Shown here: positions 9,390-19,900 of the stretch, piece after piece | How positions within the stretch are numbered: position 1 is the first letter of the stretch | How the letters are laid out: each line of letters opens with the position of its first letter | Position numbers and translations under genes: made by a program | From: Sphingomonas parva (ex Maeng et al. 2020) | GTDB taxonomy: Bacteria > Pseudomonadota > Alphaproteobacteria > Sphingomonadales > Sphingomonadaceae | Length of the DNA stretch: 64,000 bases | Assembly: GCF_004564275.1 (NCBI RefSeq) | Contig: NZ_SPDV01000001.1 | Location: forward strand, 62,001-126,000 | Direction: 5' to 3' | The notes under the pieces: generated by a model | What the model was told of the DNA's origin: nothing | What the model saw: only the letters and a program-made list of their open reading frames with translations | The model's database searches: none

Positions 9390-11417
9390 TCAGGCGGGAA
9401 CGAGAACGTGCTGGACGACCTCGTCGGCGAGCTTGCCGTTGAGGTCTGCGAGATGATCGAACTCCGCCTGATAGGTCGCCAGACCCTGGCTCAGGGAGCG
9501 AAGCTCGGCGTCGAGGCCCTGCAGCTCCGCTTCCGGCAACAGCGCTTCGACCTTGTCCCAGCGCGACCAGCCCTCGCGCGTCGCCACTCCGAGCATCTGG
9601 CCCCGGCGGCTGGCGATGGCGGAGGTGATCCGTGACGTCGCGGTGGACGGAGAGAGGATCGTCACCCGGTGCACCGGCTCCAGCAGATGGGGCGAGGCGG
9701 CGGCGAGCGCCTCGGACATGGCGATCCGCCCGGCGGTTCGGAAGGCGATCTCCGAGCTGTCGACGCTGTGATAGCTGCCGTCGACCAAGGTGACCGCCAC
9801 GTCGACGACAGGGAAGCCGAGCGGCCCCTTCGCCATGGCATCGCGAACCCCCTGCTCGACCGCGGGGAACCACTGGCGCGGCACGACGCCGCCGCTGATC
9901 CGCTCGGAGAATTCGAAGCCCGAACCGCGGGGCAGGGGGTGCACCTCGATGACGACGTCGCCGAACTGCCCGTGCCCGCCGGACTGCTTCTTGTGGCGGC
10001 CGCGCTGCGTCACCGGCTTGCGGATCGACTCCTTGTAGCCGATCGCCGGCGGGCGCGAATCGACGGCGACGCCGTAGCGCCGCTTCAGCCGCGCCAGCGT
10101 CACCTTCAGATGCTCGTCGCTGATTCCGTGCAGCCGCGTCTCGTGCAGCGCCTCGTCCTGTTCCCAGCCGAGCGAAGGATCCTCCTCGCAGAGCTTGTGC
10201 AGCGCGGTGGAGAGCCGGACGTCGTCCTTACGGTCGGTGGTCGAGATCGCCAGCGCGTAGTTGGACGCGGCGCGATCGCCCGGCGAGGTCGCCGCGGGCG
10301 CGCGTCCGCGCCCCAGCCATTCGCCCGGGCCCACGCCTTCCGCCTTGGCGATGGCGACGACGTCGCCGGTCTCGCCACGCGCGAGCTTGGCCAGCTTTTC
10401 TCCCTGAACCGAGAAGAGGGTGCCGACGCGAACCGCAGTGCCGCCCGACGTGACCAGCTCAGTGCCCTCGGTGAGAGCGCCGCCGAAGACGCGGGCGAGG
10501 ACGAGCCGGCCCATCGACCCGGCGTGCGAGACCTTGAAGGCATAAGCGCAGTCGCCCGCTGCGCCGAGCCGCTCGGCGGCTGCTTCGGGCGCGGGCGCAT
10601 CGTGACGGAGCGCCTTCAGGAGGCGGCGCACGCCGAAACCGTTGAGCGCCGAGCCGAACAGTACGGGCACGACGAGATTCTCCCGCGTCTCGCGGGTGAG
10701 ATCGGCGAAGATCGTCTCGCGATCCGGCATCTCGTCCATGAGAAGCTGCTCGAGCAGGGAATCGTCATGGTCGGCGAGCTGTTCGAGCAGGTGATAGCGG
10801 TCCTGCGCCTCGCGATCAGCGAGATTGGCGGGGATGTCGACCGGCTCGGACGCCTTACCGAGCCGGTAGAGGAAGGCGCGTTCGAGCGCGAGATCGACGA
10901 AGCCGGTGATCTTCTCGCCGTCGCGGATAGGAATCTGGCGGGCGACGAGCGGCGACGAGCTCATCGGCTGCAGCGCCTCGAGCAGCTCGCGGATGCCGCC
11001 ACGGGCCTGATCGATCTTGTTGACGAAGATGAGGTGGGGAACCCGCATCGCCTCCAGCCGGCGGAGCGCCGGCTCGGCGAGATGGGCACGGGCGGCGTCT
11101 GGATCGATCACGACCACCGCGAGGTCCGCCGCGGCGATGGCGAGATCTCCGTCGGCCGCAAAGCCAACGGACCCGGGCGTGTCGACGATGGCGAAGCGAT
11201 CGCCGAGGAATTCCAGGTTCGTCAGGTTGATCTCGGTCGAGCCGCGGCGGGCCCGTGCCTCGGCGCTCGCATCGCCGACGCTGTTGCCGTTTTCGACGCT
11301 GCCCTGACGGTCGATCGCGCCGGCCGCGAACAGCAGAGCCTCGGCGAGGCTCGTCTTTCCCGCGCCGCCCGGTCCAACGAGCGCAATCGTCCTGGTGCCA
11401 ACCGATCTTTCGGGCAT
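9390..11417 (-). CDS. EF-G-like translational GTPase (FusA2 type)
   Basis: A 675-aa protein with the domain order of elongation factor G. P-loop GPGGAGKT is at 15-22, DTPG at 79-82 and NKID at 133-136; the domain IV/V remainder includes KKQSGGHGQFGDVVIEV. It differs from canonical EF-G: the residue after DTPG is serine (position 83), where EF-G and other translational GTPases have the catalytic histidine, and the following VDF is VGF. This places it with the EF-G-like paralogues of unknown role rather than the housekeeping fusA. ATG 11417 is preceded by GGAGG. The gene appears monocistronic. Confidence 0.88.
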   Translation of the reverse strand: MPERSVGTRTIALVGPGGAGKTSLAEALLFAAGAIDRQGSVENGNSVGDASAEARARRGSTEINLTNLEFLGDRFAIVDTPGSVGFAADGDLAIAAADLAVVVIDPDAARAHLAEPALRRLEAMRVPHLIFVNKIDQARGGIRELLEALQPMSSSPLVARQIPIRDGEKITGFVDLALERAFLYRLGKASEPVDIPANLADREAQDRYHLLEQLADHDDSLLEQLLMDEMPDRETIFADLTRETRENLVVPVLFGSALNGFGVRRLLKALRHDAPAPEAAAERLGAAGDCAYAFKVSHAGSMGRLVLARVFGGALTEGTELVTSGGTAVRVGTLFSVQGEKLAKLARGETGDVVAIAKAEGVGPGEWLGRGRAPAATSPGDRAASNYALAISTTDRKDDVRLSTALHKLCEEDPSLGWEQDEALHETRLHGISDEHLKVTLARLKRRYGVAVDSRPPAIGYKESIRKPVTQRGRHKKQSGGHGQFGDVVIEVHPLPRGSGFEFSERISGGVVPRQWFPAVEQGVRDAMAKGPLGFPVVDVAVTLVDGSYHSVDSSEIAFRTAGRIAMSEALAAASPHLLEPVHRVTILSPSTATSRITSAIASRRGQMLGVATREGWSRWDKVEALLPEAELQGLDAELRSLSQGLATYQAEFDHLADLNGKLADEVVQHVLVPA

Positions 11418-11452
11418 GAGCTTTCCTCCGTTCGCTGGCGCGACACGCGGAA

Positions 11453-11468
11453 AAGCGCATGCGCGCTT
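11453..11468. repeat. Short palindrome in the divergent region
   Basis: AAGCGC-ATGC-GCGCTT, perfect 6-bp arms, 36 bases upstream of the EF-G-like gene start. It could be an operator or part of its leader; nothing else identifies it. Confidence 0.3.
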
Positions 11469-11541
11469 GGACCGGCGGAGACTCCTCTTATTCGGCCGCA
11501 AGCGCAAGCGAGTCGCGCTGCCGGAGAACACGCGCCGCCTC

Positions 11542-11567
11542 GGAACGAGGCCGCCCTGTCGCGGGTT
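11542..11567 (+). promoter_or_regulatory. Candidate EcfG (general stress) promoter
   Basis: GGAAC at 11542-11546, 18 bases, then GTT at 11565-11567. This matches the alphaproteobacterial general-stress sigma factor consensus GGAAC-N16/18-GTT. The expected transcription start would be about 40 bases ahead of the gene at 11615. Confidence 0.5.
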
Positions 11568-11614
11568 TAGACGCGCAGCGGAATTGCCGCTCAGTGCTCC
11601 GGTGGAGATTGCTT

Positions 11615-12166
11615 ATGTCCCTCAAGACCCTGGCGACGCTGGCGTGCCTCTCGCTCGTCGGCACGGCCGGCGGCGTGTGGCTCGGCGGAGCGGCGGTCGG
11701 CGAGATCGACCCGTTCTTCTTCTCGGTGCCCGAAAGCAGCTTCGTCAGCGACCGAATGGCCTATCGCAGCCCGGATTGGACCGAGGTCCAGATCGGCGAG
11801 TACGAGCAGGAAGGCCTCAACGCCGGGATCGGCCAGGGCCCGATGCCGGGCGCCGTCTATGCGTCTCCCGCGGTCGCGACCTATGGTGAAAGCTGGGCGA
11901 GCGCTGCCGAGGACGCCGCCGCGGACAGGACGGCCCCGGCGACCGCATGGCGGCCCCGCGAGGAGCCCGCGCGCGCCTGGACGCCGCCAGAGGAGCCGGT
12001 GCGGGTCTGGCGCGCACGCGGGCAGTTGCCCGAGGATCGCGAGGCCGAGTGGCAGCAGGTCGAGCGCTATGCCAGCTACCGCATCGCCGATGAACCAGTG
12101 GCGGCGGAAGAGCCGGACCCCGAACCGGAAATCTATGCGGCCGCCCAGGAGATCGGCGCCGAATAA
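11615..12166 (+). CDS. Exported or membrane-anchored protein of unknown function
   Basis: A 183-aa product. Its N-terminus [28 protein letters not shown] is a signal peptide or membrane anchor. The remainder is acidic and rich in P, E, A and W, with a repeated pattern [11 protein letters not shown] / [11 protein letters not shown] around residues 112-130 that suggests an extended periplasmic tether. ATG 11615 is supported by GGTGGAG seven bases ahead. I do not recognise the family. A candidate EcfG promoter lies about 48 bases upstream, so a role in the cell-envelope stress response is possible but unproven. Confidence 0.7.
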
Positions 12167-12201
12167 GCCGACGCGCCTCGGCCGAGCACCGGACGCGGCG
12201 C

Positions 12202-12230
12202 TTGCCCGGGCGGGGCGCCTCCCTTACATC
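12202..12230 (+). promoter_or_regulatory. Candidate alaS promoter, possibly leaderless
   Basis: TTGCCC (12202-12207), 17 bases, then TACATC (12225-12230). The start would fall at or next to the ATG at 12238, and no Shine-Dalgarno sequence is present. Elements are only moderate matches to consensus. Confidence 0.3.
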
Positions 12231-12237
12231 GCGCGGC

Positions 12238-14901
12238 ATGACCTCGACCAACGACATCCGCCGCTCTTTCCTCGACTATTTCGGCCGCGAGGGGCATCAG
12301 ATCGTGCCTTCCGCGCCGCTGGTGCCGCAGAACGATCCGACGCTGATGTTCGTCAACGCGGGCATGGTTCCTTTCAAGAACGTGTTCACCGGCCTGGAGA
12401 AGCGTCCTTATTCGACCGCCACTTCGTCGCAGAAGTGCGTCCGCGCCGGCGGCAAGCACAATGATCTCGACAATGTCGGTTACACGGCGCGGCACCACAC
12501 CTTCTTCGAGATGCTCGGCAATTTCTCGTTCGGCGACTATTTCAAGGAGCAGGCGATCAGCCATGCCTGGACGCTGATCACCCGCGAATGGGGGATCTCG
12601 CCCGATCGGCTGACCGCGACCGTCTACCACACCGACGACGAGGCCTATGAGCTCTGGCGCAAGATCGCCGGGCTGCCGGAGAGCCGGATCATCCGCATTG
12701 CGACCAAGGACAATTTCTGGGCGATGGGCGACAGCGGCCCGTGCGGCCCCTGCTCGGAGATCTTCTTCGATCACGGCGATCACATCCCCGGCGGCCCTCC
12801 CGGAAGCCCGGACGAGGACGGGGACCGGTTCGTCGAGATCTGGAACCTGGTGTTCATGCAATATGAGCAGGAGGACAATCAGATCGTCCGCGACCTGCCG
12901 CGGCCATCGATCGACACCGGCATGGGCCTGGAGCGCGTCGCCGCCGTCCTGCAGGGCGTCCACGACAATTACGACACGGACACGTTCCGCGCGCTGATCC
13001 AGGCCTCCAGCGAGCTGACCCGCACCGAGACGACCGGCGTCCGCCAGGCGAGCCACCGCGTCATCGCCGACCATCTGCGCGCCTCCGGTTTCCTGATCGC
13101 CGACGGCGTTCTCCCGGCCAACGAGGGCCGCGGCTATGTCCTGCGCCGGATCATGCGCCGCGCCATGCGCCACGCCCACATCCTCGGCGCGAGCGAGCCC
13201 TTGATGTGGCGCCTTGTGCCGGCGCTGACTGCCGAGATGGGCGCGGCCTATCCCGAGCTGGTTCGCGCCCAGCCGCTGATCGAGGAGACGCTGAAGCTGG
13301 AGGAGACGCGGTTCCGCCAGACGCTCGACAAGGGCCTGCGCCTGCTCGATGAGGCGACGGCCGGCATGGCGGCGGGCGATACGCTCGCCGGCGACGTCGC
13401 CTTCCGCCTCTACGACACCTACGGCTTTCCCTACGACCTCACCGAGGATGCGCTTCGCGCCCAGGGCTTCGGCGTCGACCGCTCCGGCTTCGACGCCGCC
13501 ATGGCAGAGCAGAAGGCCGCGGCGCGCGCCGCGTGGAAGGGCTCGGGCGACAAGGCCTCGGACGATCTGTGGTTCGACATCGCCGAGGAGCATGGCGCCA
13601 CCGATTTCACCGGCTACTCCGGCCACGAGGGCGAGGGCCAGGTGATCGCCATCGTCAAGGACGGCGCGCGGGTCGACAGCGCCGCCGCCGGAGACAAGGT
13701 GGTGATCGTCACCAACCAGACGCCGTTTTACGGCGAGAGCGGCGGGCAGATGGGCGACGCCGGCACGATCGAGAACGACGCCGGCCTGAAGGCCCAGGTC
13801 TCCGACACGTCGAAGCCGCTCGGGCGGCTGCACGCCCACCACGCGACGATCGCCGAGGGATCGGTGAAGGTGGGCGATGCCGTGAAGCTGGTCGTCGATG
13901 CCGAGCGGCGCGGCCGCGTCCGCGCCAACCACAGCGCCACCCACCTGCTCCATGCGGCGCTGCGCCACCGGCTCGGCGGTCACGTCACGCAAAAGGGCTC
14001 GCTGGTGGCGCCGGATCGCTTCCGTTTCGACTTCTCCCACCCCAAGGCGCTGAGCGCCGAGGACATCGCCGCGATCGAGGCCGAAGTGAACGCGCACATC
14101 CGCGAGAACGACGCTGTCACCACCCGGCTGATGAGCCCGGACGAGGCGATTGCCGCCGGTGCCATGGCCCTGTTCGGCGAGAAATATGGCGACGAGGTCC
14201 GCGTGCTCTCGATGGGCCGGGGTGGCGAGGGCAGCTATTCGGTCGAGCTGTGCGGCGGCACCCACGTGTCGGCCCTCGGCGACATCGCCTTGTTCAAGAT
14301 CATCGGCGAGAGCGCGGTGGCGGCCGGCGTGCGCCGCATCGAGGCGCTGACCGGCGAGGCCGCGCGCCAGTGGCTGACCGAACGCGAGAACCGCCTGAAG
14401 GAAGCCGCTTCGGCGCTGAAGGCGGCGCCGGAGGAAGTGCCGGCCCGCGTCGCCAGCCTGATCGAGGAACGGCGCCGGCTGGAGCGCGAGCTCGCCGAGG
14501 CGAAGAAGGCGCTGGCGCTCGGCGGCGGCGCCGGCAAGGCCGAGGCACACGGTCCCGAGCAGATCGGCGGCCATGGCTTCATCGGCCAGGTGATCGATGG
14601 CATGGATCCGAAGGCGCTTCGCGGCCTGGTCGACGACGCCAAGAAGCGCGTCGGTTCGGGCGTGGTGGCGCTGGTCGCGGTCAATGACGGCCGCGCCAGC
14701 GTGGCGGTGGGCGTCACCGACGATCTCGCCGGGCAGCGCAACGCCGTCGATCTCGTCCGCCGCGCCGTCGAGGCGCTCGGCGGCCAGGGCGGCGGCGGTC
14801 GTCCGGACATGGCGCAAGGCGGCGGTCCGGACGGCAGCAAGGGCGCGGACGCGCTGCAGGCGGTGCGCGAAGCTTTGCAAGCCGAGGCGGTCGCCGCCTG
14901 A
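12238..14901 (+). CDS. alaS: Alanine--tRNA ligase
   Basis: An 887-aa class II synthetase that charges tRNA-Ala. The N-terminal catalytic core is recognised by [20 protein letters not shown] and [15 protein letters not shown]. The editing domain carries the zinc/hydrolysis motifs NHSATHLLH and CGGTHV, and the C-Ala domain follows a coiled linker rich in E, R and A. Length equals the family norm. The start at 12238 matches the conserved N-terminus; no ribosome-binding site is visible ahead of it, which together with the promoter-like elements suggests a leaderless mRNA. Confidence 0.98.
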
Positions 14902-14923
14902 ACGGCGTGCCCGCCATGATCTT

Positions 14924-14941
14924 TGTCGCCAAATGGCGACA
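14924..14941 (+). terminator. Hairpin after alaS
   Basis: TGTCGCC-aaat-GGCGACA, a 7-bp perfect stem starting 22 bases after the alaS stop. No U-tract follows. A second, bulged hairpin (GCGATC...GATCGC with inner CTCC/GGAG) lies at 14974-15001. Confidence 0.4.
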
Positions 14942-15065
14942 CCATCAGTGTGACTGCGGTGGTAACGCCGCGCGCGATCGCCTCCAGCTTGGAGGGATCG
15001 CGAGCGCGCGACCAAGTGCGGGCGAGTACAGGCGCCGCCTTCGTCTCCGGGCATCTTTGCGGCCG

Positions 15066-15094
15066 ATTGACCGCGGTTCTCGCGAGGCGTAATC
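15066..15094 (+). promoter_or_regulatory. Candidate sigma-70 promoter of the kinase/lyase operon
   Basis: TTGACC (15066-15071), 17 bases, TAATCT (15089-15094). The -35 matches five of six consensus bases and the -10 three. The predicted start near 15101 leaves a leader of about 90 bases with two alternative hairpins. Confidence 0.45.
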
Positions 15095-15129
15095 TGAAGG
15101 CTTGGGGACTATGCCGTTGCATTGCGCGA

Positions 15130-15154
15130 CCTGACGCCTGTCAGGCCGACAGGC
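15130..15154 (+). promoter_or_regulatory. Two mutually exclusive leader hairpins
   Basis: CCTGAC-gcct-GTCAGG (15130-15145) and GCCTGTC-aggcc-GACAGGC (15136-15154) share the bases GCCTGTCAGG, so only one can form at a time. They end 37 bases ahead of the first gene of the operon. Confidence 0.4.
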
Positions 15155-15191
15155 AGTCCCTGTGCACCGGCCGATGCGACGGGAGGTCGCT

Positions 15192-15776
15192 ATGCCGACA
15201 CGTTTCACCCGACATGATTTCCTGATCAAGGACCTCGCAGTCACGATCGCCAACGGCGGCGGCGGCGCCGGCACCTGGATGCCCGGACCCGATGACGAGA
15301 CTCCGCCCACGCCGATCTCGCCGATCGCCAGCGTGATCGCGAACATGGACCTGATCGAGATGGTGCGCGCCACCATGGCGGACGCGATCAAGGCGAAGAA
15401 GTTCGACGAGATCGGCCGCGCCTTCGCCAGCGACGATCCCGGCGGCAATCTGGCGATCCGCACGGCGATCCAGGAAGTGGGGCGGGCGGTCGTCGCCAGT
15501 GCGGCTTATGCCGGCCTGCGTGGCGGCTCGGCCGGCATGCCCAACCCCGATTGCGGCGGCACCTCGCTCGAGACGATCCCGCCCACTCTCACTCCCGTCG
15601 TCCATATCGGGCGGGCAATGCATCGCGTGACCGACCTGCCGCGGCTGCGCCGACAGCTCGAGCAGACGGTCGACTATCTCGACAAGACCGCGGCTGCGCA
15701 GGCGCCGCGCGGCGCCGAGGTCGCTGCGGTCAGAACCCAGCTCGAGGGCGCCCTCAAGGCGCTTCCGGTCCGCTAG
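15192..15776 (+). CDS. Unknown 194-aa protein, candidate substrate of the kinase/lyase pair
   Basis: First gene of a three-gene operon; ATG 15192 has GGGAGG five bases ahead. No family was recognised. What is visible: an N-terminal block TRHDFLIKDLAVTI, then GGGGAGTW and a proline-rich PTPISP stretch, a helical middle part, a Gly/Ser/Thr-rich stretch with the only cysteine (Cys121, in PNPDCGGTSLETIPPTLTP), and a helical, charged C-terminus. The leader-like N-terminus, the Ser/Thr-rich stretch with one cysteine and the downstream modifying enzymes make it a candidate precursor or substrate. It is longer than most RiPP precursors, so an accessory role is equally possible. Confidence 0.75.
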   Translation: MPTRFTRHDFLIKDLAVTIANGGGGAGTWMPGPDDETPPTPISPIASVIANMDLIEMVRATMADAIKAKKFDEIGRAFASDDPGGNLAIRTAIQEVGRAVVASAAYAGLRGGSAGMPNPDCGGTSLETIPPTLTPVVHIGRAMHRVTDLPRLRRQLEQTVDYLDKTAAAQAPRGAEVAAVRTQLEGALKALPVR

Positions 15777-15789
15777 GCGGGGCGGAGAC

Positions 15790-16521
15790 GTGACCGGCCG
15801 CCTGGCGGGACTGTCGCTGGCGGGTCTGCGGCTGGCTGCCGCAGGCCTGCCGGCGCCGTCGGAAACCCTCGCCAGGCGGCTCTACCGCTTCGGTACCTAT
15901 CCGCGCGGCCCGGCGATCGAGCGAGACTTCGGGCTCGACGACGAGCCGATGTCCGTGCTCGGCCTGGCGCGCGGCGGCAGCGCCCGGCGATGCCTGGAGG
16001 CGGCGTTCGAGGCGACGAGCTTCCCCGGCTGGTTCTCCTTCGCGCGCGGCGATGCGCCGCGCGTCGTGGCGACGTGCAAGCTCTACGTCAGCCCGCTGCC
16101 GCAGGCGCTTCCGGGAGCGTTCCCGGTGGTGGCGGAGGCGTTCGCGGGCGGCGGCGTGCGCTCGTTCAAGGTGGGCAGGGGCCTGGAAGGCCTGCTGCGG
16201 CCGGACAAGATCGTCGCCTATTTCGACGACCCAGGCCATCTCCGCGAGGTCGCCCGCACCCTGGGCGCGTTGCTGAGCGGCTGCCCGGCCCAGGGCACGC
16301 CCTTTACGGCAGACCTCGGCGGCGATGGACTGCTGTCGTGGGGCGCCGATCCTGCCGGCGGCGAGGGCGGCGTCAGCTGGCGAAGCTGGATCACGCGCCG
16401 GCTCGCGGCAGGGCTGACGCAGGCGGGGCCGGCGGACCCCGTCAGCGCTGCGCTTCGCGACATCGCGCAGGCCGGAGTCGATCCGGTGCGCTGGGCGCCG
16501 GCCGGGGGCTCGCTGCAATGA
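15790..16521 (+). CDS. HopA1-like phospho-lyase family protein (putative)
   Basis: A 243-aa protein starting at GTG 15790, 13 bases after the upstream stop. The central part resembles HopA1-type effectors and LanY-type lyases of class V lanthipeptide systems: ATCKLYVSPLPQALP (Lys97), GGVRSFKVGRG (Lys127), LLRPDKIVAYF (Arg137, Asp139, Lys140) and GTPFTADLGGDGLLSWGADP. In those relatives, lysines catalyse beta-elimination of phosphate from phospho-Ser/Thr, leaving dehydro amino acids. Its stop overlaps the kinase start (ATGA), which fits a kinase/lyase pair. The family call is from remembered motif similarity and needs a profile search. Confidence 0.6.
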   Translation: MTGRLAGLSLAGLRLAAAGLPAPSETLARRLYRFGTYPRGPAIERDFGLDDEPMSVLGLARGGSARRCLEAAFEATSFPGWFSFARGDAPRVVATCKLYVSPLPQALPGAFPVVAEAFAGGGVRSFKVGRGLEGLLRPDKIVAYFDDPGHLREVARTLGALLSGCPAQGTPFTADLGGDGLLSWGADPAGGEGGVSWRSWITRRLAAGLTQAGPADPVSAALRDIAQAGVDPVRWAPAGGSLQ

Positions 16522-18545
16522 ACGCGCCGAGCCAGCTCAGCGGCGCCGCGGACGTCACCGAGACGCTCTTCCTGCTCCCCCGGGACGTGAAGTGCCTGAA
16601 GGTGGCCGAGCTTACCGCCAGGCTCCGCGACAGGATCGGGCCGGTCGCGCCCGGGCAGACGGTGATCACGCGGCCGGGCTTTCGCCTTATCCCGCGGCTC
16701 GTTCCAGAGCCGCTGGCTGCTCTGGTCGAGGAGTTCCGGCAGCCCAGCCTGATCACCGATGCAATCCTCCGTTTCGGCCGGGAACATGGCGAGGATCCGG
16801 CGGTGATTCTGGAGCAGGCGTTCGACGCGCTGGCGACCTTGATCCAGGGGCGGATCCTCGTTCCTGCGGAGTCCGCCGCCGCCGACAGCATTGCGCCCAG
16901 CCTCGGCGCCGGCCAGGCCTTCGCCTGCTACGAGATCGACTTCCTCGTTCGCGCGCAGGACGACAGTGAGATCTACAAGGCACGCGATGCGGCGGGCGAG
17001 GCGGTCGCGCTGAAGATCGGCCGCGCCGACCGGCCCGAGATGCGCGCGGTGCTGCAGTACGAGGCGCGGGTGCTCGAATCGCTCGGTGGCGAGGTCTCGC
17101 CGCGCTTCCACGGCTGCGGCATGGACGGCGGGAGACCCTATGTCGCGATGGAATATTGCGAAGGCACCAGCATCGCGACCGCCGCGCAACAGGCACGCGC
17201 GGCCGGCGACCGCGACGCGCTCCATCATCTCGTCGGATCGCTCTTCGTGGCTTACGCGCGGCTGCACGGCGCAGGCGTCCTCCACGGCGACGTGCACACC
17301 GGCAATTGCATGGTGCGGGAGGACAAGAGCATCGTCATCCTCGACTTCGGGGCGGCGATCCGGATCGGGGAGGGCGCCGCCGCGTCGCGCGGCGGTATTC
17401 CGCACTTCCACGATCCCGACATGGCCGGAGCGATGTTGCGCGGGCGGATGCCGCCACCCGCTACGCCCGCCTCCGAGCAATATGCCCTGTGCGTGCTCGC
17501 CTATCTGCTCCTCACCGGCCTCCACCCGATGCAGAGCATTGCGGTGCAGGACGAGCTGCTCCGCCAGATCGTCCGCCGCCCACCTTTGCCATTCGCGGCG
17601 CGCGGCGTTGCCGCCTGGCCGAAGGCGGAGGCAGTGCTCGCCCGCGGGCTGGCCAAACGGTCTGAACGGCGCTTCGCCAGCGTCGCGGCGCTCGCCGCGG
17701 CCTGGCGCGCGATTTCCCTTCCGAAGGCGGCAGACCCGCGGCCGGCTCTCGATGCTGCGCTGGCCCCGCTCCGGGATACAGCTGCGTCGGCGCTGCCGCC
17801 GCTTGATCGCGCCTGGCTGGCGTTGCGGGCGGCGCTCGCCCTTGGCGACGGGGAGCTTCTCGCCGCCGCGGAGATGTGGATCGGCAAGGCCGAAGGCGGC
17901 TGGGCGGCGCAGGCGGTGGCGGCGCAGATCGCCCGGGCTCAGTCCGACCATCGTGCCGAGCAGCGCGCCATCGCAGCCTTCATCGCGGCCGCCGGCGCCG
18001 TGCGGGCCGGCGAGCGAAGGCCTGCCACGCTCGCCGCGGCGGAGGTGCTTGACGGCATCGGAGGGCGGCCCGTGGATGCCTCCGCGCTCGTCACCTGGGC
18101 GACTGTGCAGGTCGCGCGAAACGAGGTGGGCGTCGCTGACGCCAATGCGACGATAGGGCTCCGTGCCGCCCTCGCGCTCGGCCGCGCCAGAGCGTTGCCC
18201 TATCCCGAGGATCTCGGCCGCCGCCTCGGCCGTGCGGCAGCGGATGGGCGAGGCGATCCCTGGCTCTGGGCGGACGCGCATTTCGCCCTCGGCACGGCGC
18301 GCTTCCGCCGCCTGGCGCTCGCCGCGCCGCGCCCTGAGACGCGAACAGGCGCAGCGTTCGCTGCGTTGCGGCTCCACCAGCTGACCGGCAGCCCCCGCTG
18401 GATCGCGGCGGCGCGGGGAGCGCTCCTCGCTCCCGCAGAGGGAGCAGACCTGTTCGATGCCTTGCTCGCCGTTGAGCTGAAGGCGCCGGAGCGGGCGGTG
18501 CTTCCCGCTTTCCTGCTGCCGCGCGTGCTGGGCGGATCGGCTTAG
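16518..18545 (+). CDS. Protein kinase with N-terminal PqqD-like segment (LanK-type candidate)
   Basis: A 675-aa protein. Residues 45-115 read like a PqqD/RRE winged helix: VITRPGFRLIPRLV, then LITDAILRFGREHGEDPAVILEQAFDAL (in part) and GRILVP. Residues 135-395 form an active-looking kinase: VALK (Lys166), YEARVL (Glu182), HGDVHTGN (Asp258, Asn263) and DFG (Asp276). The last 270 residues are Ala/Leu-rich helices without the zinc ligands of LanC cyclases. The start overlaps the upstream stop as ATGA. The neighbour suggests it phosphorylates Ser/Thr of a substrate bound by the RRE-like domain. The convergent DUF763 gene overlaps its 3' end by 4 bases. Confidence 0.8.
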   Translation: MNAPSQLSGAADVTETLFLLPRDVKCLKVAELTARLRDRIGPVAPGQTVITRPGFRLIPRLVPEPLAALVEEFRQPSLITDAILRFGREHGEDPAVILEQAFDALATLIQGRILVPAESAAADSIAPSLGAGQAFACYEIDFLVRAQDDSEIYKARDAAGEAVALKIGRADRPEMRAVLQYEARVLESLGGEVSPRFHGCGMDGGRPYVAMEYCEGTSIATAAQQARAAGDRDALHHLVGSLFVAYARLHGAGVLHGDVHTGNCMVREDKSIVILDFGAAIRIGEGAAASRGGIPHFHDPDMAGAMLRGRMPPPATPASEQYALCVLAYLLLTGLHPMQSIAVQDELLRQIVRRPPLPFAARGVAAWPKAEAVLARGLAKRSERRFASVAALAAAWRAISLPKAADPRPALDAALAPLRDTAASALPPLDRAWLALRAALALGDGELLAAAEMWIGKAEGGWAAQAVAAQIARAQSDHRAEQRAIAAFIAAAGAVRAGERRPATLAAAEVLDGIGGRPVDASALVTWATVQVARNEVGVADANATIGLRAALALGRARALPYPEDLGRRLGRAAADGRGDPWLWADAHFALGTARFRRLALAAPRPETRTGAAFAALRLHQLTGSPRWIAAARGALLAPAEGADLFDALLAVELKAPERAVLPAFLLPRVLGGSA

Positions 18546-19810
18546 CCCGACGCGGCCTCCTTCCCCGGCGAGCCGGGCTTTGCCCAGCCGAAAACGGTGC
18601 GGCCGCCATATTCGTGGCTGCGCCGCCGTTCCTCGGCAGTGAACGTTTCGAGCGACGGGCCGGTGGCGTGACGCTCCAGGCGTCGCGCCTGCTCGTCGAG
18701 GCGGCGGGTTGCGCCGAGCTTCTCCTCCTCGCCGAGCCGGGCGGCGGCGACCGCGGTCTTCAGCACGCCGATCGTCTTGTCGTAGACCTTCAGCGGAACG
18801 GGGAAGGGATGGCCATCCTTGCCGCCATGGGCGAGGGAGAAGCGGCCGGGATCGGCGAAGCGGCAGGGCGCGCCGTGGATCACCTCGGCGACCATGGCGA
18901 GCGACGCGACGGTCCGCGCGCCCACACCCGGCACGAGCAGGAGATCGGCAAAGTCCTTGGGCCCGCGGTCGGCCGCCGCGGCGAGGCTGGCGTGGAGGCG
19001 GCGCACGATGACGTCGTCGGCGCGCAGATCGTGGTGATCGGGCAGGACGAGATGAGGCAGGATCGGCTCGGCGTCCGCGGCGGGCGAGGGCGGCACCGTG
19101 GCGCGGCGCAGCGCCGCGGCTTCGCGGGCGAGCCGATCCGGGCCGAGCGCGGCCAGCAGATCGAGCTGCGCGCGGCGCGAGGCTTCGGCGCGGCGATCGG
19201 CGAGGTTGACGATATTGCCCTGCTCGCGTCCTTCGATTGCGGCATGCGGCGAGTCGACGAAGCTCTCCAGGCCTTCGGACAGCCAGTGGTAGCGGCGCGC
19301 CGTTCGGCGTGCGCCGTTCATGCCCTGCTGCACGACCGTCCATTTGCCGTCGTCGGTGACGATGAAGCCGTGGAGGTAGAGATCGAAGCCGTCCTGGACG
19401 GCGGCGCTGTCGACCTTCGCCACCAGCCGGCTCGCGGTGGCGAGGCCGCTGCCGTCGAGACCGGCCCGCTCGCTGGCGGCGACCAGCTCCGCCGGCGTCT
19501 GGCGGGAATGGCGGCCGCGGCCGCCGCAGACGTGGATGCCGAGCTCGCCGGCGAGCGGGTTGAGGCCGCGCTTCAGCGCACCGATGACGCTGGTGGTGAT
19601 TCCGGAGGAATGCCAGTCCATTCCCATCACCGCCCCGAACGACTGGAACCAGAAAGGGTGGGCGAGCCGGCGCAGGAATTCGTCCCGGCCGTAATGATGG
19701 ACGATCGCCTGGGTCATCACCGCGCCGAGCCGGGTCATGCGCTCGCCGAGCCAGGCGGGAACCCGGCCCCCGTGCAGCGGCAGGACGGCGCTGCCCGATC
19801 TTTGCGCCAT
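18542..19810 (-). CDS. DUF763 domain-containing protein
   Basis: A 422-aa protein matching DUF763, known mostly from archaea and scattered bacteria, function not established. Hallmarks are RSGSAVLPLHGGRVPAWL at the N-terminus, HPFWFQSFGAVMGMDWHSSG (51-70) with TTSVIGALK, and a helix-hairpin-helix at 288-312 (LLLVPGVGARTVASLAM), a fold that usually binds DNA backbone. ATG 19810 fits the conserved N-terminus, with GGAG nine bases ahead; an ATG at 19858 is possible. The stop overlaps that of the convergent kinase gene by 4 bases. The HhH suggests a DNA-related role; nothing more can be said. Confidence 0.88.
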   Translation of the reverse strand: MAQRSGSAVLPLHGGRVPAWLGERMTRLGAVMTQAIVHHYGRDEFLRRLAHPFWFQSFGAVMGMDWHSSGITTSVIGALKRGLNPLAGELGIHVCGGRGRHSRQTPAELVAASERAGLDGSGLATASRLVAKVDSAAVQDGFDLYLHGFIVTDDGKWTVVQQGMNGARRTARRYHWLSEGLESFVDSPHAAIEGREQGNIVNLADRRAEASRRAQLDLLAALGPDRLAREAAALRRATVPPSPAADAEPILPHLVLPDHHDLRADDVIVRRLHASLAAAADRGPKDFADLLLVPGVGARTVASLAMVAEVIHGAPCRFADPGRFSLAHGGKDGHPFPVPLKVYDKTIGVLKTAVAAARLGEEEKLGATRRLDEQARRLERHATGPSLETFTAEERRRSHEYGGRTVFGWAKPGSPGKEAASG

Positions 19811-19900
19811 GTCGACGGACTCCAGGAACAGAGATGGAACGGATAGCAGGCCTTCCATCGGCCCGCCAGCCCGTTCGACCTCTGACGGAGCGGGAAAAGC

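Follow-up and report, generated by a model that had tools for sequence, protein, structure and literature searches.

Do three consecutive genes in the genome of Sphingomonas parva (ex Maeng et al. 2020) encode a dehydration system in which kinase and lyase are separate proteins, and if so, what would that system modify? The genes, open reading frames (ORFs) here called ORF1, ORF2 and ORF3, lie on the forward strand of the window, by which we mean the whole stretch of 64,000 nucleotides analysed (contig NZ_SPDV01000001.1, positions 62,001 to 126,000; Table 1). An earlier note on this DNA had proposed a split kinase/lyase system related to that of class V lanthipeptides, with ORF1 as precursor or partner, and the fold predicted for ORF2 and the co-occurrence of the enzyme genes support that relationship, from which activity is inferred. 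We consider the triplet to be probably a split lanthipeptide-type dehydration operon, in which the ORF3 kinase and then the ORF2 lyase act on ORF1. The layout is as previously described, with 13 bases between ORF1 and ORF2 and a 4-base overlap (ATGA) between ORF2 and ORF3, and it is more than a chance arrangement, since homologous triplets occur in the same order in five other genomes (loci L001, L002, L003, L009 and L025) and the ratios of nonsynonymous to synonymous substitution (dN/dS) between the window and its congener G015, given below, point the same way.

Two predicted enzymes encoded together

Fifteen loci were examined, with metagenome-assembled genomes (MAGs) among the relatives. 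Lyase and kinase genes co-occur in all 15 and are adjacent in 14; the exception is Cupriavidus, where an oxygenase gene separates the two and the kinase gene has the convergent orientation. The co-occurrence that the earlier note expected of all three genes thus holds throughout for the enzyme pair, but for ORF1 in six of the 15 loci, the window and the five named above. The other nine (L004, L005, L006, L011, L010/L026, L027, L028, L029 and L030) are of a zinc-LanC type, among them plasmids of Paenibacillus peoriae (L011) and Cupriavidus oxalaticus (L010/L026).

The motifs CKLYV, FKVG, RPDKIVAYF and PFT..LSWG.DP, on which ORF2 had been called HopA1/LanY-like, are present, and sequence searches find little else: ORF2 has no Pfam match at E <= 5 and one NCBIfam match (E 0.11), the single sequence retrieves none of the PDB sequences, and its profile retrieves unrelated chains only, at E 0.45 or worse. 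The likeness resides in the predicted structure. An AlphaFold model built from an alignment of 13 sequences, which also served for residue conservation, has a mean predicted local distance difference test score (pLDDT) of 89.1 and a predicted template modelling score (pTM) of 0.88. With this model Foldseek places first the lexapeptide lyase LxmY (9dk3_B, E 3.9e-7), followed by the Pseudomonas syringae effector entries 4rsx (E 5.2e-7) and 4rsw, the latter being HopA1 (PMC10604976), and then by SpvC/OspF-type lyases and class III/IV synthetases including CuvL, ThurKC and SalKC. VIA-align comparisons gave Z 17.3 for 4rsx (root mean square deviation, rmsd, 3.9; 223 aligned), Z 15.0 for 8car (rmsd 3.1; 157 aligned) and Z 14.9 for 9dk3_B (rmsd 3.8; 216 aligned). 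As modelled, ORF2 is inside the HopA1/LanY/OspF lyase fold, and so the structural part of the earlier claim stands, whereas a match to HopA1 sequence models does not.

The proposed catalytic residues fall in one conserved stretch, with Lys97, Lys127 and Arg137 invariant in all 13 sequences and Tyr144 in 12. The spacing of the last three (10 and 7 residues) equals that of Lys219, Arg229 and Tyr236 in CaoY, which match residues of SpvC (PMC9486802), and Lys97 takes the position of Arg187 in CaoY and Lys104 in SpvC, equivalences read from alignment and spacing rather than from superposition. Where SpvC has its general-acid His, 12 of the 13 ORF2-type sequences have Tyr and one has Phe; CaoY is likewise without this His (PMC9486802). 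RamC_N matches one of the 13 lyases at E 6.5e-4, scoring 18.4 bits there under a cut-off of 27.

The full set of kinase motifs that had been read in ORF3 is intact (Lys166, Glu182, HGD at 256-258, Asn263 and DFG at 276-278), and Lys166, Glu182, His256, Asp258, Asn263 and residues 276-278 are invariant across 13 aligned kinases. The likeness to LanK needs qualification: the closest NCBIfam model is LanL (72.5 bits), ahead of StpK7 (60.4) and LanKC (59.0), APH (PF01636) gives no match to ORF3 at E <= 1, and the kinase is joined to an N-terminal domain and a zinc-less LanC-like domain, neither of which had been seen at first reading. Four relatives that were tested pass the APH cut-off of 23.2 (30.1-45.7 bits), each beside a Pkinase match.

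Homology of the C-terminal domain to LanC is clear in profile comparison, in which the C-termini of the six ORF1-type proteins align to the zinc-type LanC profile with an hhalign probability of 99.5 (E 6.9e-23). These six domains are shorter than the zinc type and lack its motifs, and LANC_like finds no match at E <= 1 in ORF3 or its L003 relative; three zinc-type relatives tested match at E 1.3e-22, 8.2e-22 and 2.8e-33. In all nine relatives of the zinc type a LanC domain follows the kinase and retains the AHGW, WCNG and LCCG motifs.

The N-terminal domain is possibly a ribosomal-peptide recognition element (RRE). PqqD matches one of 15 members (E 0.01) and DUF7782 two, at a similar E (0.0099). 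On the Cupriavidus oxalaticus plasmid (NZ_CP038636.1, L026:5214-6122) the same domain forms part of an oxygenase of the 2OG-Fe(II) type (E 3.2e-12) encoded within the cluster, a fusion which suggests that the domain is a substrate-binding module and that the product there is hydroxylated.

ORF1 as the proposed substrate

ORF1 has no family match of weight in Pfam or NCBIfam scans, 72,556 plasmid records hold no match to it, and the earlier observation that its 194 residues and single cysteine, Cys121, set it apart from known precursors is correct. It shares features with genes at the sister loci. At seven of the nine zinc-type loci the lyase is preceded by a gene for 99-263 residues with 3-25 cysteines; none was seen near L006, and L030 has just 962 bases before its lyase. 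Several contain repeated cores: the L029 gene has repeats like CTDCTTQQFSICGTSP, that of L027 CYASGG repeats, and that of L011 three DCGITCLASCG-type cores in three tandem core-helix units. Such zinc-type loci are themselves candidate lanthipeptide clusters. The L029 and L027 genes (L029:6256-7047 and L027:8713-9240, minus strand), from genomes of the phylum of L006, hold 25 and 18 cysteines in many near-identical cores, and the annotation of the L011 cluster (10582-15127 of plasmid NZ_CP011513.1) names a LanC family protein and otherwise hypothetical proteins.

ORF1 and most of these precursor-like proteins share terminal features. When models of ORF1 were run on 776 ORFs from the examined loci, that of residues 144-194, which include the C-terminal helix, had as its two best matches the precursors of L004 (E 4e-4) and L005 (E 3.7e-3), in that order. 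The N-terminal motif lies within the first 25 residues of six of seven precursors and of five of the 776 ORFs, four of them precursors; having been defined after the sequences were viewed, it is descriptive, and L025 failed it where the reference began upstream of the likely start. Because the helix and the motif are shared with Cys-rich precursor genes of the sister loci, we favour substrate over partner for ORF1.

If ORF1 were instead a partner (adaptor, chaperone or regulator), ORF2 and ORF3 would dehydrate a peptide or protein encoded elsewhere. The length of ORF1, its single cysteine and its conservation, the strongest of the three, suit a protein with a function of its own better than a core, and two of its conserved residues, Ser43 and Thr61, are not in the proposed core. 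In seven of nine sister loci, however, the place of ORF1 is taken by a small Cys-bearing gene, several of these with repeated cores, and most share its helix and motif, so that we think the partner role unlikely. A signalling pair, in which the kinase would phosphorylate a cellular protein and the lyase irreversibly dephosphorylate it, as a switch of the kind that OspF-type lyases exert on host kinases, would suit an ORF2 fold that is the same as that of phosphothreonine lyases, and also flanks in which, as far as tested, no exporter was recognised; but at the sister loci lyase and kinase go together with precursor-like genes that bear cysteines and with an intact LanC domain, which argues for peptide modification and makes signalling improbable.

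The five ORF1 orthologues are 48-75% identical to the window protein, and between the window and G015 dN/dS is 0.18 for ORF1, 0.29 for ORF2 and 0.33 for ORF3 (synonymous divergence, dS, 0.92-1.25). By these ratios ORF1 is under the strongest constraint of the three, and in this it differs from the variable core of an antibiotic. Residues 121-130 are its best-conserved ten-residue block, and Ser43, Thr61, Cys121, Ser125, Thr128 and Thr134 are the same in all six sequences. The same figures bear on whether we are looking at a decaying lanthipeptide cluster, its cyclase dead and the remainder being lost: the zinc ligands are gone from all six ORF1-type proteins, as decay would have it, but the frames are open in all six, dN/dS lies at 0.18-0.33 between the two congeners and ORF1 is conserved as stated, and we regard decay as very improbable.

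For the preferred reading, dehydration of ORF1 by kinase then lyase, as by CaoK/CaoY and LxmK/LxmY, is the simplest account. ORF3 would phosphorylate Ser/Thr residues of ORF1, and the free lyase ORF2 would eliminate the phosphate to leave dehydroalanine (Dha) or dehydrobutyrine (Dhb). The N-terminal motif and C-terminal helix may act as recognition elements around a conserved core at residues ~112-140. We infer that the helix is a handle for the enzymes because the leader helix of ThurKC sits between the lyase and kinase domains (PMC10604976). Cys121 may add to a nearby Dha or Dhb to give one thioether ring, either spontaneously or templated by the zinc-less LanC-like domain; alternatively, the end product could be uncyclised dehydro-ORF1. 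ThurKC, of class III, has a cyclase that works independently of metal (PMC10604976), and LanC is not required in some class V systems (PMC12328550). The window branch would descend from a split lanthionine-synthetase architecture and have lost its zinc cyclase.

Gene order, conservation, the lyase fold and residues, kinase motifs, LanC homology and the ends shared by ORF1 and the precursors were computed, and it is from these that phosphorylation, elimination, the modified residues, ring formation and the role of the N-terminal domain are inferred, so that activity is predicted. A number of results weigh against this reading. HopA1 sequence models in the Pfam scans do not match ORF2, and PF17914 touches two of the 13 lyases, at a best E of 0.16. 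Membership of the HopA1 sequence family was rejected in a profile comparison with three of four HopA1 loci (L090 omitted) and two RamC_N loci, with 100 shuffles each, in which probabilities of 0.3 and 1.1 lay below the best shuffles (2.3 and 4.3); the aligned stretch was the Lys/Lys/Arg/Tyr region, though the score was within the shuffles. The test of the N-terminal domain as an RRE is weak, hhalign to PqqD (14 sequences from 30 loci, chosen by eye) giving 13.4 against a best of 6.1 in 50 shuffles, but two narrower sets only 0.5 and 0.3. By its motifs the LanC-like domain is without zinc ligands. In its length, its single cysteine and its strong conservation ORF1 departs from what is usual in precursors; its whole-length model reaches those of L004 and L005 at no better than E 0.18 and 0.82, and its N-terminal model leaves them unranked among the 776 ORFs. 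Its AlphaFold model (six sequences; pLDDT 41.7, pTM 0.31) is unusable; the low-confidence stretches 1-52 and 96-149 would suit a leader and a core that are flexible, although disorder is not proved by six sequences so alike. Finally, Pfam recognised no exporter in the few flanking genes tested.

Genomic setting and distribution

The features of the locus are collected in Table 1. The single promoter-like element of the earlier note is readable by eye, but it matches eight of 12 consensus bases, and a scan of 14880-15260 at a threshold of nine of 12 found no sites.

Table 1. Features of the triplet and its flanks, in window positions.
Feature	Position	Strand	Remarks
Gene alaS (flank)	12241..14901	+	tRNA-synt_2c E 1.9e-212
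Weak promoter-like element TTGACC-17-TAATCT	15067..15095	+	By-eye reading; TTGACC 15067-15072, TAATCT 15090-15095
ORF1, proposed substrate	15192..15776	+	194 aa; ATG start, GGGAGG upstream
ORF1 residues 10-19, FLIKDLAVTI, N-terminal motif	15219..15248	+	Shared with sister-locus precursors
ORF1 residues 112-140, proposed core (Cys121, Thr124, Ser125, Thr128, Thr132, Thr134)	15525..15611	+	Conservation; role inferred
ORF1 C-terminal helix (residues 174-190), putative recognition element	15711..15761	+	Profile matches; helix from low-confidence model
ORF2, predicted stand-alone phospho-Ser/Thr lyase, HopA1/LanY fold	15790..16521	+	243 aa; GTG start
ORF2 stretch with proposed catalytic Lys97, Lys127, Arg137, Tyr144	16078..16221	+	Conservation; roles from CaoY/SpvC
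ORF3, N-terminal domain, kinase and LanC-like remnant	16518..18545	+	675 aa; ATG start
ORF3 N-terminal domain, possibly RRE	16518..16892	+	First ~125 residues
ORF3 protein kinase domain	16929..17717	+	Pkinase 55 bits, cut-off 31.7
ORF3 LanC-like domain without WCNG, CCG, AHGW motifs	17676..18542	+	hhalign to zinc-type LanC profile
DUF763 gene (flank)	18542..19858	-	DUF763 E 5.6e-120; convergent, overlaps ORF3 stop

Beyond the DUF763 gene lies a gene for a protein with Na/H-exchanger and TrkA_N domains, which we take to be a CPA2 antiporter. Among 26 genomes of the genus, the window included, 25 have an alaS match, and the next match after it is ORF1 in two (the window and G015), DUF763 in five and the antiporter in 14, four being unjudgeable within the flank available. 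In 19 of the 25, then, no ORF1 lies between alaS and the DUF763 or antiporter gene that is matched next, and so the operon is an accessory insertion in a stable neighbourhood, compatible with one gain or many losses. The DUF763 gene (window 18542-19858; loci L064-L084) is variable in its turn: some members of the genus have it beside alaS, whereas next to the alaS of others it was not seen.

The ORF1-type operon is sparsely distributed, its hosts being the window genome, one congener, three close genomes of the family Nitrosomonadaceae and one Phenylobacterium. A scan of GTDB contigs yielded six relatives among 120 candidate stretches, with the kinase gene after the lyase gene in all six and ORF1 in three. 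Searches around known loci, whose counts include the centre genomes, found two in 148 relatives, two in the 26 genomes of the genus, one in 398 genomes of the phylum, which is the window itself (at most six candidates scored per genome), three in 125 of the family of L001 and two in 199 of that of L004, both already in the set (at most 13 scored), and four in 297 of the phylum of L006 (at most nine scored). Relatives occur in two of 72,556 plasmid records, and there were no matches in 50,697 phage records. In unrooted trees of lyase, kinase and both, the ORF1 type forms one clade with support of 1.0, and Nitrosomonas is nearer the window than Phenylobacterium is, which suggests that the operon moved by horizontal transfer.

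A patchy, inserted operon whose ORF3 matches the PADLOC PD-T4-6 kinase models (107.4 bits) might be taken for a kinase-based defence cassette. The PD-T4-6 matches lie mostly on the generic kinase domain, however, ORF1 and ORF2 match nothing in PADLOC, and the phage records hold no relative; this we find the least probable of the alternatives, and remotely so.

Some neighbours of the relatives may be recorded here. Downstream of the triplet and on its strand, L001 (10947-11393; E 1.6e-7) and L025 (10625-11101), both from genomes of the family Nitrosomonadaceae, have a gene for a PsiE-family membrane protein, and an M20-family peptidase gene lies upstream in L001 on the opposite strand. The MAG G541 (L006, L089, L091, L092) carries an ORF2/ORF3-type system together with two HopA1-type lyase loci and a RamC_N-type synthetase, one of the HopA1-type lyases belonging to a frame of 784 aa whose end is LanC-like.

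Relation to known lanthipeptide systems

In the open-access literature searched, subscription papers being mostly outside it, we recognised no account of ORF1, or of a kinase-LanC fusion paired with a free lyase of the LanY fold. It is tempting to see here an architecture separate from classes I-VI (a LanY-fold lyase that stands free, a fusion of recognition-type domain, LanL-type kinase and LanC, and two-handled precursors), whose zinc-less branch puts dehydro-residues, perhaps one thioether, into a single conserved 194-aa protein of alpha- and betaproteobacteria, a lanthipeptide pathway turned dedicated protein-modification system. We hold this wider proposal tentatively, as one that could well be right but that we do not yet lean towards. 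If true, bacteria would have more ways of assembling lanthionine synthetases, a HopA1-fold lyase would have been overlooked by current sequence models, and the locus would be a natural test of what a pathway does after losing its zinc cyclase: either the ring is closed anyway, or the product is a dehydrated protein.

The dehydratases of class V and thioamitide pathways (CaoK/CaoY, LxmK/LxmY, TsaC/TsaD) resemble the triplet in having kinase and HopA1-fold lyase as separate genes and in the Lys/Arg/Tyr spacing. Their kinase, however, is of the APH type (PF01636) and their lyase belongs to PF17914, whereas the triplet has a Pkinase-type domain fused to a LanC-like one and a lyase outside PF17914; CaoY has Arg187 where ORF2 has Lys97, and the substrate proposed here is long and conserved, unlike those of class V. 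A census of 1,340 HopA1-domain proteins found 96% beside a phosphotransferase and 20% near or fused to LanC (PMC8153245). Its HopA1-LanC families, like the zinc-type and ORF1-type loci, combine a HopA1-type lyase, phosphotransferase and LanC in one locus, but with LanC near or fused to the lyase rather than fused to the kinase as here, and overlap between the census and our loci is possible.

Class IV LanL and class III LanKC share with ORF3 the order of kinase and then LanC-like domain, and the ORF3 kinase is closest to LanL, although ORF3 falls below the curated cut-offs of both (72.5 of 650 bits for NF038150, LanL, and 59 of 575 for NF038151, LanKC). They unite lyase, kinase and cyclase in one polypeptide, whereas the triplet has a separate lyase gene and, in the place of the lyase domain, an unrelated N-terminal domain. 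The zinc-binding LanC of LanL is absent from the window and its five ORF1-type relatives and present in all nine sister proteins; in being zinc-less, the cyclase domain of the window branch is reminiscent of LanKC. The class VI enzymes LanKCb and LanMbC, like ORF3, join a dehydratase or kinase to a truncated or zinc-less cyclase domain, but they are single polypeptides with other substrates, LanKCb being by definition a single streptococcal chain whose lyase and cyclase domains are truncated, and the triplet has its separate lyase gene. None of classes III, IV, V and VI agreed with the triplet in every feature tested, and so we assign it to none of them; it would work in the manner of class V dehydration, and its relatives are those of class IV.

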